30,785 nt of DNA, from IMG/VR virus record IMGVR_UViG_3300043446_000438, positions 1-30,785 of that record; one strand, given 5' to 3'. Positions 6,030 through 11,236 of the stretch are shown here, piece by piece. The notes beneath the pieces were generated by a model. That model had not been told where the DNA came from, did no database searches, and saw only the letters and a list, made by a program, of their open reading frames with translations. Both the position numbers and the translations under genes were made by a program. Each line of letters starts with the position of its first letter. The first letter of the stretch is position 1. Origin of the DNA: a virus.

Positions 6030-6475
6030 ACCAAGAACTCGTAACCATTCCAAAGTCGGACATCAGCAAGGCTGACATCGCCGACATCGCTGCTAACCTC
6101 ATCCTCCGAATAGAGGAAGGAGAGGTCAATCCCATCGCCGCCCATGTGCGCCTCAAAGCCGTTGTCAAAGCCGTTGAGCAGGTCCTCAAAGCCACCGAGC
6201 AAACGGTGTGGGATGAAGCCGAAAAGAACGGCAAGACCTTCTCCGCATTCGGTGCTGACATCCAACTCAAGGAGGGGGCGATTACTCCCGACTATTCGCA
6301 CGACCAAGTTTGGAGTGACCTGCAAGCCTCCATGAAAGCGAGGGAAGAGCAACTCAAGATGGCCTTCCGCAACGCTGGCAAGATGACGGTCATTGACGAA
6401 GCAACTGGCGAGGTCGTTCCTGTATGTCCCGCAAAAGGCACAAAACCATCCATTTCTGTGACTTTTAAGGGATGA
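6026..6475 (+). CDS. Unknown early protein with helical core, 149 aa
   Basis: A 149-aa mainly helical protein (IADIAANLILRIEEGEVNP, KAVVKAVEQVLKATEQTVWDE) with an acidic-basic pattern suggesting a coiled coil around residues 35-70, a central part with charged helices (WSDLQASMKAREEQLKMAF) and a short beta-like C-terminus (KPSISVTFKG). ATGA overlaps link it to both neighbours. A role in recombination or DNA metabolism fits its position, but no family is recognised. Confidence 0.6.
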   Translation: MNQELVTIPKSDISKADIADIAANLILRIEEGEVNPIAAHVRLKAVVKAVEQVLKATEQTVWDEAEKNGKTFSAFGADIQLKEGAITPDYSHDQVWSDLQASMKAREEQLKMAFRNAGKMTVIDEATGEVVPVCPAKGTKPSISVTFKG

Positions 6476-6762: not shown

Positions 6763-7008
6763 ATGAGCAACTACACCCCACAACCCAACACCTTCTCCCT
6801 GTTCGCTAACGACAAAGGCGACAACCCCAAGCGTCCTGACTACAAGGGCGACATCATCCTGCCCGATGGCACTAAGATGCGCCTGTCCGCATGGGTGCGT
6901 GAATCCCAAGGCGGCAAGAAGTTCCTGAGCGGCAAAGTCGAGCCGATGCAGGACCGCCAAGATTCTGCACCATCACCACAAAAAGATGGAGATGACTTGC
7001 CATTTTAG
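6763..7008 (+). CDS. SSB-like small protein with DDLPF tail (DUF736-like)
   Basis: An 81-aa protein with NTFSLFANDKGDNPKRPDY, then DIILPDGTKMRLSAWVRES and GGKKFLSGKVEP, resembling the small OB-like DUF736 proteins of phages and plasmids. It ends in an acidic tip, GDDLPF, very like the bacterial SSB tip (DDDIPF) that recruits replication proteins. Thus it probably binds single-stranded DNA or mimics the SSB C-terminus to attract helicase, primase or nuclease. It immediately precedes the replication-initiation block. The stop codon lies inside the first copy of a 13-bp tandem repeat. Confidence 0.7.
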   Translation: MSNYTPQPNTFSLFANDKGDNPKRPDYKGDIILPDGTKMRLSAWVRESQGGKKFLSGKVEPMQDRQDSAPSPQKDGDDLPF

Positions 7009-7032
7009 TGTACCATTTTAGTGTAACTTTGC
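6997..7032 (+). promoter_or_regulatory. Promoter for the 7038-7151 RNA and replication operon
   Basis: TTG at 6997-6999 could be the -33 element, followed 24 nt later by TAACTTTGC (7024-7032), an exact TAnnTTTG match. The spacing is slightly longer than usual for Bacteroidetes. Transcription should start near 7036-7040, ahead of the structured RNA. Confidence 0.55.
7000..7025 (+). repeat. Perfect tandem 13-bp repeat between promoter elements
   Basis: CCATTTTAGTGTA is present twice without a gap, at 7000-7012 and 7013-7025. The repeats fill the spacer between a TTG at 6997-6999 and the -7 box TAACTTTG at 7024-7031. This is the expected place for an operator bound cooperatively by a dimeric regulator; the winged-helix protein encoded at 6472 is a candidate. 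Confidence 0.6.
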
Positions 7033-7037
7033 ACGAA

Positions 7038-7151
7038 ATTCACATTTACCAATAAAGGCGGTTTGCTGAAGTAGAGGTCAGCAAGTCGTTTAGAAAAAAG
7101 GGTACATCTTAACCCTGCCCCGACTGCCTCTACCAGTTGGGGCTTTTTTTT
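7038..7151 (+). ncRNA. Structured RNA with predicted kissing loops, ends in terminator
   Basis: About 114 nt between a -7 box (ends 7031) and a terminator. Hairpin 1 spans 7056-7091: a continuous 14-bp stem (four G-U pairs) with loop AGTAGAGG (7070-7077). A small hairpin AGGGT/ACCCT (7099-7116) follows. Hairpin 2 (7117-7143) is the terminator stem with loop CCTCTAC (7127-7133). Loop 2 is the exact reverse complement of GTAGAGG in loop 1, predicting a 7-bp kissing interaction. AGTCG (7084-7088) could also pair with CGACT (7121-7125), giving an alternative fold that would break the terminator. It may be a free sRNA or an attenuator leader of the gene at 7156. Confidence 0.7.
7117..7151 (+). terminator. 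Intrinsic terminator before helicase-loader gene
   Basis: GCCCCGACTG and CAGTTGGGGC form a 10-bp stem (one G-U) with a 7-nt loop, followed by eight T residues. It ends only 4 nt before the ATG at 7156, so read-through must be needed for expression of the downstream gene from this promoter. Confidence 0.85.
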
Positions 7152-7155
7152 ACTC

Positions 7156-7860
7156 ATGAAACAAATATCATGGTTTAAGTTCTGCCCAGCCGATTGGATG
7201 ATGGGCCGAATCTCACGGCAACCCGCCGAGGTGCAGGTAGCCTTCATCCGACTTTGCTGCGTCTATTGGAACGCTGAATGCGAGATGTCAACCGAGCACG
7301 CCGAACTGGAAGCCGATGGGCATCTGCAAAGGCTACTGCAAACCCGTTTGGTAGAAACCAATGGTCCGTCCGTGTTTATCAAATTCCTTGACATTCAATG
7401 GGAAGACGCAAACCTGCACCGTACCAAGATGTCCGAAGCAGGGAAAAGAAGTGCCGAAAGAAGGTCAACTAAGGTTGAAGAAAATCCAACTAAGGTTGAA
7501 CCTATGTTGAACCTACCTTCAACCTATGTTGAACCTACGTTCAATAGAGAAGAGAAGAGAAGAGAAGATAAGAGGGAGAAGAAAGATTGTGTCCTTTTTG
7601 ACCAATTTTGGGCCTTGTATCCGCGCAAGACCTCCAAGCAGTCCGCACTCAAAGCCTTCGCCAAGTTGAAAGATGAAGACCAGCAGAAGGCTATCAACAA
7701 CGTTGCACGCCTCTACTCCGATACCCCCGTTGAGTTTATTCCCCATGCCGCAACCTACCTGAACCAAGCCCGATGGGAGGACCAAACCATTATCCGTGGC
7801 AATACTTTTGCAAAACCACTAAACCAAACCGATGACGCAGACCTACCTCATTTCCGCTGA
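7156..7860 (+). CDS. Replication initiation / helicase-loader-like protein (DUF1376-type N-terminus)
   Basis: A 234-aa protein. The N-terminus (SWFKFCPADWMMGRISRQ, then VQVAFIRLCCVYWN) is the DUF1376-like domain common in phage replication initiators. A hydrophilic linker (about residues 95-147) carries the repeats TKVEENPTKVEP and STYVEPTFN and a very basic/acidic run (EEKRREDKREKKD). The C-terminus (FDQFWALYPRKTSKQSALKAF and IPHAATYLNQARWED) resembles helicase-loader or DnaD-like C-terminal domains. It overlaps the DnaB-like helicase by 29 nt, as expected for a loader-helicase pair. The linker DNA is an iteron array, so the gene probably contains the origin it acts on. ATG 7156 is preferred because the conserved WFKF motif lies at residue 6. 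Confidence 0.8.
   Translation: MKQISWFKFCPADWMMGRISRQPAEVQVAFIRLCCVYWNAECEMSTEHAELEADGHLQRLLQTRLVETNGPSVFIKFLDIQWEDANLHRTKMSEAGKRSAERRSTKVEENPTKVEPMLNLPSTYVEPTFNREEKRREDKREKKDCVLFDQFWALYPRKTSKQSALKAFAKLKDEDQQKAINNVARLYSDTPVEFIPHAATYLNQARWEDQTIIRGNTFAKPLNQTDDADLPHFR
7465..7545. repeat. Iteron array, candidate replication origin
   Basis: CAACTAAGGTTGAA occurs at 7466-7479 and 7487-7500 (21-bp period). A 17-bp unit, ACCTATGTTGAACCTAC, occurs at 7500-7516 and 7522-7538 (22-bp period). GTTGAA half-sites start at 7474, 7495, 7506 and 7528, with the inverted form TTCAAC at 7518. TCAAC-N4-GTTGA palindromes are seen at 7465-7478 and 7519-7532. The array lies in the linker-coding part of the helicase-loader gene. 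Confidence 0.7.
7546..7586 (+). other. Polypurine tract next to the iterons
   Basis: About 40 nt consist almost only of A and G (repeating AGAGA units) with hardly any pyrimidine on this strand. It follows the iterons directly. Such strand-asymmetric DNA can unwind or form triplexes and could serve as the opening region of an origin; it also encodes the charged EKRREDKREKK linker. Confidence 0.5.
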
Positions 7861-9121
7861 ACGCAGGCTCCTGTCCTGCCTGATGGATTCCTTTATTGAC
7901 CGTGCATCCCTGCTGATGCAGATTCCCGAAAGGTTGTTCACAGGGAATAACGTCTTCATATACCGAGCCATTGAAGCCCTTCACCGGGCAGAGCGGCCCG
8001 TGGACTTGGTAACCGTTCACCAACAACTTGTCAGCCAAGGTCAGGCGTTTGTAGTCATTGAACTCGCAAACGTAGCCGATGGCATTACCATCACATCGGA
8101 CTGGAAGACCTACGCCGCAGACTTGAACCAAGCGTGGAAGGTAAGGGAAGAGCAAGCTATTATGGCAGACCTTGCCGTTGACCGGGACATTCCAAGAGCA
8201 TTCGCACGCTACCAAGCGATGCAGGCCGTGGAAACCAATGCCTCCGAATCAACCGCTCATGAACTCGCCAAGGACTACTTGCTCAACATGAACGAAGTCC
8301 GGGAAGGAAGGCGCAAGGATTCTATCTATCCCTGCTACATTGCACCAATAGACCGAATGTTTACTGGATTTAAGCCATCCGAGTTTATTCTTCTTGGTGG
8401 TCGCCCTGCAATGGGTAAGACCCTGCTTGCCTTGCAAATCGCCATGAACCAAGCCATGGCTGGCATTCCTGTGGTGTTCTTTAGCCTTGAAATGAGTGCA
8501 GACCAACTGACCCAGCGGATGCTTTCTAACTTGGCCGAGATGGATGGGGCATCGTTTCTAAACCCAAGCGAAAGGATAGGCGACGACGAGTTTCTAACGC
8601 TTGCCCAAAAAGCGGACCTTCTAAAGTCAAAGCCCCTGTACATCGTGGACCTCCACCAAGCCAACCTTGACCGCATCGAAGGCGAAATCGCAAAACTCAA
8701 AACCAAGTACGGAGTTTGCGGATTCTACCTTGACTACCTGCAACTGGTAGAGCCAACAAAGATGGACAAGCCCAAACCTAAAATTGAGCAGATGACCAAC
8801 ATATCCAAGACCCTTAAATCTATCTGCAAGCGGCAGAAGGTGTTTGGGGTCGTGGTGTCATCCCTATCCCGTGCAACGGAAGGCAGGGCAGACCATCGGC
8901 CAATCATGTCCGACCTGCGAGAAACGGGGCAACTTGAGTTTGATGCGGATAAAATTGCGTTTGTTTTCCGACCTCACCAACACGACGATGCAAAACCCGA
9001 AGATTTGATGGAGGTCATCGTACGCAAGAACCGAAACGGTATGCTTGGTATCGCAGACATCCAATGCCATCTTCCATTCACCAAAGCCAACGAGTTCCCA
9101 CCAAATAGAATCGATTTATGA
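7832..9121 (+). CDS. dnaB: DnaB-family replicative helicase
   Basis: A 429-aa protein close to the usual DnaB length. The N-terminal domain (about residues 5-110) has the ISAERRLLSCLM start and IYRAIEALHRAERPVDLVTV typical of DnaB-N. The RecA-like ATPase domain follows, with Walker A GGRPAMGKTLLA (189-200), FFSLEMSADQLTQRM, Walker B YLDYLQL (D301) and the SLSRATEGRADHRPIMSDLRE region with later RKNRNG. It unwinds DNA 5' to 3' at the fork, loaded by the upstream initiator whose gene it overlaps by 29 nt. No primase is fused, and I see none elsewhere, so host primase is probably used. Confidence 0.93.
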   Translation: MTQTYLISAERRLLSCLMDSFIDRASLLMQIPERLFTGNNVFIYRAIEALHRAERPVDLVTVHQQLVSQGQAFVVIELANVADGITITSDWKTYAADLNQAWKVREEQAIMADLAVDRDIPRAFARYQAMQAVETNASESTAHELAKDYLLNMNEVREGRRKDSIYPCYIAPIDRMFTGFKPSEFILLGGRPAMGKTLLALQIAMNQAMAGIPVVFFSLEMSADQLTQRMLSNLAEMDGASFLNPSERIGDDEFLTLAQKADLLKSKPLYIVDLHQANLDRIEGEIAKLKTKYGVCGFYLDYLQLVEPTKMDKPKPKIEQMTNISKTLKSICKRQKVFGVVVSSLSRATEGRADHRPIMSDLRETGQLEFDADKIAFVFRPHQHDDAKPEDLMEVIVRKNRNGMLGIADIQCHLPFTKANEFPPNRIDL

Positions 9122-10909: not shown

Positions 10910-11236
10910 ATGACACCAGCACTCATCAACCATATCGTTGACAGTACCGCAACGATTCTCGGAATCAGCCGAGAAGCCATCTGCTCCAGTTCCCGCAAGC
11001 GAGCCAACGTCATCGCTCGCAACATCATCACCGACGTTGCTTACAACGACTTCCTGTTCAAGTACCACGAAATCGGGGCAGTCCTCAAGCGCAACCACTC
11101 CACGCTGATAAAAAATAAACTCTCTTACGAGCAGGACATCATCGCCACGCCCGAAATCAAGTACATCCGCAGACAAGTTTTGCACAATGCGCAGGATTTT
11201 TTGTTAAATCTTTACGGAGGTTATACTTCTAAGTAG
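10910..11236 (+). CDS. Stand-alone DnaA domain IV-like DNA-binding protein
   Basis: A 108-aa protein resembling only the C-terminal DNA-binding domain of DnaA: ILGISREAICSSSRKRANVIARN matches the start of domain IV, and IGAVLKRNHSTLIKNKL matches the DnaA signature (IG..F.RDHSTV). No AAA+ ATPase or N-terminal domain is encoded. It probably binds DnaA-box-like sites in the phage or host origin, helping to recruit or to block host replication. It is the last gene of the early operon, followed by a structured region and terminator. Confidence 0.8.
   Translation: MTPALINHIVDSTATILGISREAICSSSRKRANVIARNIITDVAYNDFLFKYHEIGAVLKRNHSTLIKNKLSYEQDIIATPEIKYIRRQVLHNAQDFLLNLYGGYTSK

Follow-up and report, generated by a model that had tools for sequence, protein, structure and literature searches.

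We describe here an RNA element with three hairpins, the first and last of which carry loops that are exact complements of each other, located directly ahead of an initiator-type replication gene in a 30.8-kb virus record, IMGVR_UViG_3300043446_000438 (positions 1-30,785; this full stretch of 30,785 nucleotides is called the window in what follows). The same RNA with different loops recurs 5' of the initiator gene in relatives, the loops changing as matched pairs, and we regard it as very nearly certain that this is a structured RNA with a kissing interaction. The best overall explanation that we can offer, with some reservation, is an attenuator of replication whose loops would also set specificity between co-infecting phages.

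The RNA element and its gene neighborhood

The terminase encoded in the window is ∼50% identical to those of Flavobacterium phages, and searches of named phages returned no close DNA match. The element lies on the + strand, as do the genes that flank it, between an ssb-like gene directly on its 5' side (6763..7008; PHROG 18154) and the initiator-type gene (7156..7860; PHROG primosomal/replication initiation families), after which comes the gene for a DnaB-type replicative helicase (7832..9121; PF03796, PHROG 19). Iterons with an 11-bp period inside the initiator gene (7487..7544, + strand) are a probable origin, and the arrangement, with iterons within the initiator gene and a helicase gene next to it, is like that of lambda O. 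The first-pass annotation had taken the downstream genes to be helicase loader and helicase; DnaB is indeed there, and the gene before it is an initiator-type gene with in-gene iterons rather than just a helicase loader. No sequence relative of the initiator was found in the PDB, and a low-confidence structure model, used for comparison with lambda O, gave weak winged-helix matches only and no significant fold match. The initiator types that were looked at carry type-specific 10-11 bp repeats inside the gene, and at least five initiator types begin a few nucleotides past the U-tract of the RNA in the relatives. Several types of N-terminal part (window 7156-7480; contigs L049 and L050), namely MKQI, MENS, MRDS (= DUF6291), MAEI and MATI, sit on a shared C-terminal part; L049 and L050, which have other initiator types, carry different in-gene repeats at the equivalent place. 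Farther along the window are a gene with a DnaA C-terminal helix-turn-helix domain (10910-11236; PF08299) and, at ∼11291, a further terminator-like hairpin with the loop TTAACC (CTAACC or TTAACT in relatives) that has no complementary upstream loop.

Folding of the + strand RNA gives hairpin 1 (H1, 7056..7091), a 14-bp stem closed by the loop AGTAGAGG (7070-7077) within which the kissing core L1, GTAGAGG, occupies 7071-7077; a small middle hairpin (H2, AGGGT...ACCCT, 7099..7116); and, directly abutting the latter, a terminator hairpin (H3, 7117-7143) of 10 bp with the loop L3, CCTCTAC, at 7127-7133, followed at once by a U-tract of eight T (7144-7151). The minimum free energy is -39.9 kcal/mol, compared with a mean of -25.9 for shuffled sequences (z = -3.95), and 0 of 200 shuffles were as stable. 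L3 is the exact reverse complement of the core of loop 1, and the chance that a 7-nt loop finds a full complement in an 8-nt loop is ∼1/8000. The fold bears out the positions and pair counts that the first-pass annotation had given for H1 and the terminator hairpin, the eight-T tail and the exact complementarity of the loops; its picture of a ∼110-nt RNA with two hairpins retains both of these and gains H2, which it had missed. It had further proposed that AGTCG (7084-7088) pairs with CGACT (7121-7125) in an alternative fold (5 + 7 bp) that would open the terminator. This pairing can form in the window, but of 54 distinct RNAs just five have 5 bp or more of it, each with the window's loop version, and the fold, private to that version, was rejected. 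It is the one candidate considered for an antiterminator that would pair with the terminator's 5' arm, and across the 54 RNAs it is not conserved. Leader-peptide attenuation was also rejected, since the window RNA has no ATG and there is thus no conserved leader peptide, and no tRNA-like element was found.

Just past the stop codon of the ssb-like gene lies a conserved promoter-like element, TTTTAGTGTAACTTTGC (7016..7032, + strand), the only such site in the window, which includes a -7-like box, TAACTTTG (7024-7031). The box ends at 7031, as had been noted earlier, and TAnnTTTG/A is conserved at the same position in relatives; it has no -33 box in the window, and a full Bacteroidota-type promoter pattern, which the sense promoter-like element itself fails, found no site on either strand of the window. 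A perfect 13-nt tandem duplication, CCATTTTAGTGTA, is located just 5' of the -7 box (7000-7025), and its first copy contains the ssb stop codon. An unpaired 5' leader with a predicted start (7036..7055, + strand) would precede H1, and a (T/C)ACATTTAC.AATAA-like leader is common to most relatives. Only 4 nt separate the U-tract from the ATG of the initiator gene, leaving no room for a separate promoter, and transcription into the initiator, the origin and the helicase must therefore pass H3. Judged by its sequence, the RNA is a terminator-leader.

Loop versions among the relatives

Protein searches with the initiator and with DnaB led to 68 and 80 viral loci, respectively, to which DNA patterns added more; a DnaB search seeded with a divergent sequence recovered mainly the same family. 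In bacterial genomes a protein scan found no relative, and a degenerate terminator pattern returned two chance matches lacking the structure and no prophage form. A covariance model built from 20 sequences, with the loop-loop pairs left out, matches 133 viral loci (recognised overlaps left out), and the loops are complementary in all 133. Because the model was trained on matching sequences, members found with loop-blind patterns, in which the 7-nt loop is free, were scored as well in order to reduce circularity, and a perfect loop match was seen in 81 of 82 complete family members. There are ∼14 loop versions, with L3 reading CCTCTAC, CCTGAAT, CTGGAAT, CTGCAAT, CTGCTAT, CTGCGAC, CCGGAAT, CCGGAA, CCGTAAT, CCTCAAT, CCAGCA, CCTCACA, a CCGCTT core or a GCTGCC core. 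The relatives are metagenomic contigs throughout, among which chimeras are possible, and contig counts are not counts of independent events; it is the ∼14 versions and their matched pairs that carry the argument. A change in one loop alone, singled out in the first-pass annotation as the case that would speak against the pairing, occurs in 1 of the 82 members, contig L385 (RNA near 6277-6420, minus strand), where loop 1 is ATAGCAG and loop 3 CTGCGAC. This RNA combines half of one common loop version with half of another, and its -7 box has TCAATTTG in place of TAnnTTTG, so that it is either chimeric or a defective copy. A second locus without matching loops, L404, has an unrelated terminator and lacks the RNA.

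The compensatory changes that one would look for in relatives are present in the loops and in the stems alike. In an alignment of 20 distinct sequences all 138 cells in the kissing columns are Watson-Crick pairs, and sliding the register by 1-3 columns reduces the number of paired cells to 12-66. With the pseudoknot written out the covariation is 0.425, compared with 0.187 for shuffled alignments (0 of 500 as high) and 0.04-0.16 for the slid structure. Changes on both sides are seen in 5 of 7 kissing pairs and in 6 of the 7 scored pairs of stem 1; the terminator stem shows compensatory and G-U changes, with double changes in both stems 1 and 3. G-U pairs make up 75 of 605 pairs in stem 1 and 82 of 571 in stem 3 (12-14%), indicating that the folded molecule is the + strand RNA, and there are none in the kissing helix. 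The mean loop-loop energy is -8.8 kcal/mol for cognate and -2.1 kcal/mol for non-cognate loops. These are 7-nt loops that are fully complementary and covary, as in a ColE1-like kissing pair. A second subfamily (L003, L042, L063 and L378) has different stem sequences and loops that are still matched; the AAGGG/CCC of H2, nearly invariant in the first subfamily, is GGTC/GACC in the second, which also has GACCC at the base of H3.

Several relatives carry insertions. The same ∼40-nt insertion lengthens hairpin 2 in L005 (1084-1223) and L260 (9456-9588), which have different loop versions. Genes are inserted between the RNA and the initiator in L003 (1407-2990), L025 (1191-2990) and L042 (291-1990); these encode ParB-like proteins, one with DUF4326 and one with a DNA methyltransferase-like part. 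In L039 (2230-2970), and in L040 and L041 as well, the terminator hairpin itself is interrupted by a methyltransferase-like gene, with the 5' arm on one side of it and the loop and 3' arm on the other.

The RNAs of L241 and L299 are identical save for a single loop-loop pair, which is swapped from C-G to G-C, and those of L007 and L008 show five differences, of which four fall in the loop cores and the fifth lies beside loop 1. When changes are counted on a tree made from the RNA without its loops, positions in the middle of the loop have 4-8, compared with a mean of 2.6 elsewhere. Loop versions are scattered almost randomly on the DnaB tree (59 changes vs 68 shuffled), unlike the ssb-end clusters (24 vs 45) and the initiator C-terminal clusters (22 vs 56), a comparison that is qualitative because the clusters of the control segments are of unequal size. 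DnaB genes can be nearly identical and yet the loops differ, as in L108 and L046 (99.5% at the nucleotide level). The type of initiator N-terminus is fully random on the same tree (50 vs 49), and hitch-hiking with this equally scattered segment could partly explain the scatter of the loops. Loop version is in fact partly linked to initiator type, CTGCTAT occurring with MENS in 20 of 27 cases; the two also recombine, CTGGAAT being found with five types. Two or more loop versions were present in 17 of the 18 samples that hold two or more contigs, and avoidance of the same version within a sample, 4 cases vs 7.2 expected, was in the right direction and not significant (P = 0.15).

A probable attenuator and competing explanations

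Going from this conserved structure to transcription, attenuation and action in trans means reading function from sequence. We consider it probable that the RNA attenuates the initiator operon; that the loops set specificity in trans between phages is a tentative proposal. In the mechanism that we favor, an RNA of ∼110 nt would start from the promoter-like element where the ssb-like gene ends and would fold into H1, H2 and the terminator H3. The short terminated RNA would be the default product, read-through being needed for the initiator, the in-gene origin iterons and DnaB. A 7-bp kissing helix would join loop 1 to the loop of the terminator. In cis, this kiss would form on the growing transcript when its terminator loop appears, and it would hinder completion of the terminator so that there is some read-through; with rising numbers of genomes, free copies of the RNA would present the same two loops in trans and capture those of the nascent RNA, whereupon the terminator could form and synthesis of the initiator would stop. 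Phages with the same loop pair would then inhibit each other and those with different pairs would not. Since the RNA bears both partners, each terminated copy would automatically come with the specificity to act on the next nascent one, and a changed loop pair would change self-recognition; cross-inhibition by version would explain why there are many interchangeable loop versions, much as in plasmid incompatibility and phage immunity groups. A trans-acting RNA and an attenuator, which the first-pass annotation had put forward as alternatives, are not mutually exclusive.

The direction of control in this mechanism, with a kiss in cis leading to read-through and one in trans to termination, is rather doubtful. 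By our estimate a kiss in cis would require that the 7-9 nt linker and H2 span a stacked helix of 27-31 bp, which they can hardly do, suggesting that contact in cis strains H3 or H1 and that contact in trans does not; the geometry is tight and the full kiss may not form in cis. The terminator looks strong on its own, and the kiss could equally stabilize it. Were the direction reversed, an alternative that is not exclusive with our preferred explanation, the kiss would promote termination and an antiterminator factor would give read-through. In its favor, ColE1-type kissing complexes have full 7-nt loop pairing with both stems intact, but no factor is known and the tight cis geometry again weighs against it, and we find this direction unlikely too.

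The scatter of loop versions bears on a further possibility, namely that the contact is purely internal and tunes termination of its own RNA, perhaps with a host or phage protein, while the loop sequences drift in compensated steps and play no part between phages. A single RNA holds both partners, a cognate loop is always at hand in cis and contact in cis suffices for perfect covariation, and that loop versions partly track initiator type fits as well. Less easily accommodated are a scatter on the DnaB tree that is near random when neighboring segments are not, the 4-8 changes at central loop positions vs 2.6 although each needs a change in the partner, and the lack of G-U intermediates, and we take an RNA acting only on itself to be possible without being likely. 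It is improbable that the true target of the RNA, acting in trans, is some other transcript of phage or host and that its place before the initiator is incidental. It does have its own promoter-like box and terminator and is intact despite the ParB-like and methyltransferase insertions before the initiator in L003, L025 and L042, but it always heads the initiator operon, and in 71 contigs the 7-mers of a phage's own loop version are not enriched elsewhere (65 vs 114 for other versions); targets elsewhere in the phage recognised by the same 7-mers were rejected on this count. Terminators before operons are common, and one could suppose an ordinary terminator with an unrelated hairpin, the complementarity arising by chance or from an inverted repeat at the DNA level. 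The covariation already excludes this; apart from the terminator of this RNA, those in the first set of loci lacked a 7/7 complement in an upstream loop, and with ∼14 different matching loop pairs, and G-U pairs in both stems marking the + strand RNA as a folded molecule, this explanation has almost no likelihood.

Related systems and implications

The window and eight relatives match no Rfam 15 family at the gathering threshold, the best sub-threshold match being Spot 42 (25.9 bits vs 80), and the C4 antisense RNA (P4 CI RNA) model gives no match even at E ≤ 5. Among the papers searched, none had this RNA layout, in agreement with the first-pass annotation, which knew of no described class with it. 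ColE1 RNA I and RNA II interact through 7-nt fully paired loops, and compatible replicons have different loop pairs. The present loops are alike in both respects; here, however, there are in-gene iterons and the phage's own initiator, and the gene layout gives no sign of an RNA primer or an opposite-strand inhibitor. The CI RNA of P4, which comes from a leader, pairs with leader segments and terminates transcription of the replication genes (PMC4825925). Both cases have an untranslated leader of a replication operon with complementary segments in one leader (PMC4825925); premature termination 5' of the replication genes would be a further likeness, given the structure and position of the terminator here, as would action on copies of the RNA's own leader, which we propose. 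The CI RNA differs in being processed out of the leader and pairing with flanking targets, whereas the present RNA is compact, with three hairpins, both partners being hairpin loops and one of these the loop of the terminator; nor are lysogeny genes recognised here, as distinct from P4.

In attenuators of the pT181 type a kissing contact decides termination (PMC4878617). Those of pT181 and pIP501 likewise have a terminator before rep, hairpin loops that start recognition and a loop sequence that sets specificity (PMC4878617), but their second RNA is a distinct antisense transcript complementary to the whole leader, and both loops here belong to one strand and one RNA. A plasmid that carries lambda oop together with the iterons excludes phages sharing this replication type, rep-lambda (PMC3349717), and origin decoys block lambda (PMC4488673). 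Like the present RNA, oop is small and terminated and lies beside an initiator gene that contains iterons; it differs in being transcribed in the opposite direction, antisense to cII mRNA, and in having no kissing hairpin pair. Given the P4, pT181 and lambda precedents, we favor negative feedback and version-specific exclusion. With no match to the C4 model, a candidate antiterminator that is not conserved and a partner loop on the same strand, we have not placed the RNA in any of the known families, and we consider it an RNA family of its own and a novel form of replication control by RNA, one that works like those already known.

The RNA is probably a switch for the timing of phage DNA copying and may also serve in recognition of self and other. 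We regard it as possible, if somewhat doubtful, that this is an undescribed phage system for telling self from non-self in which lock and key reside on one RNA and control replication. If this is true, phages of the same version would be mutually exclusive and, with the initiator/iteron type shuffled alongside, would form incompatibility groups in all but name. The ∼14 natural loop pairs, several on near-identical scaffolds and some only one swapped base pair apart, open two questions to direct test, whether an intrinsic terminator can be gated by contact between loops and whether recognition of their own kind by RNA takes place in phages at the level of replication, and the versions are ready-made orthogonal attenuator parts. 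They suggest that phages diversify the specificity of replication control much as plasmids do.
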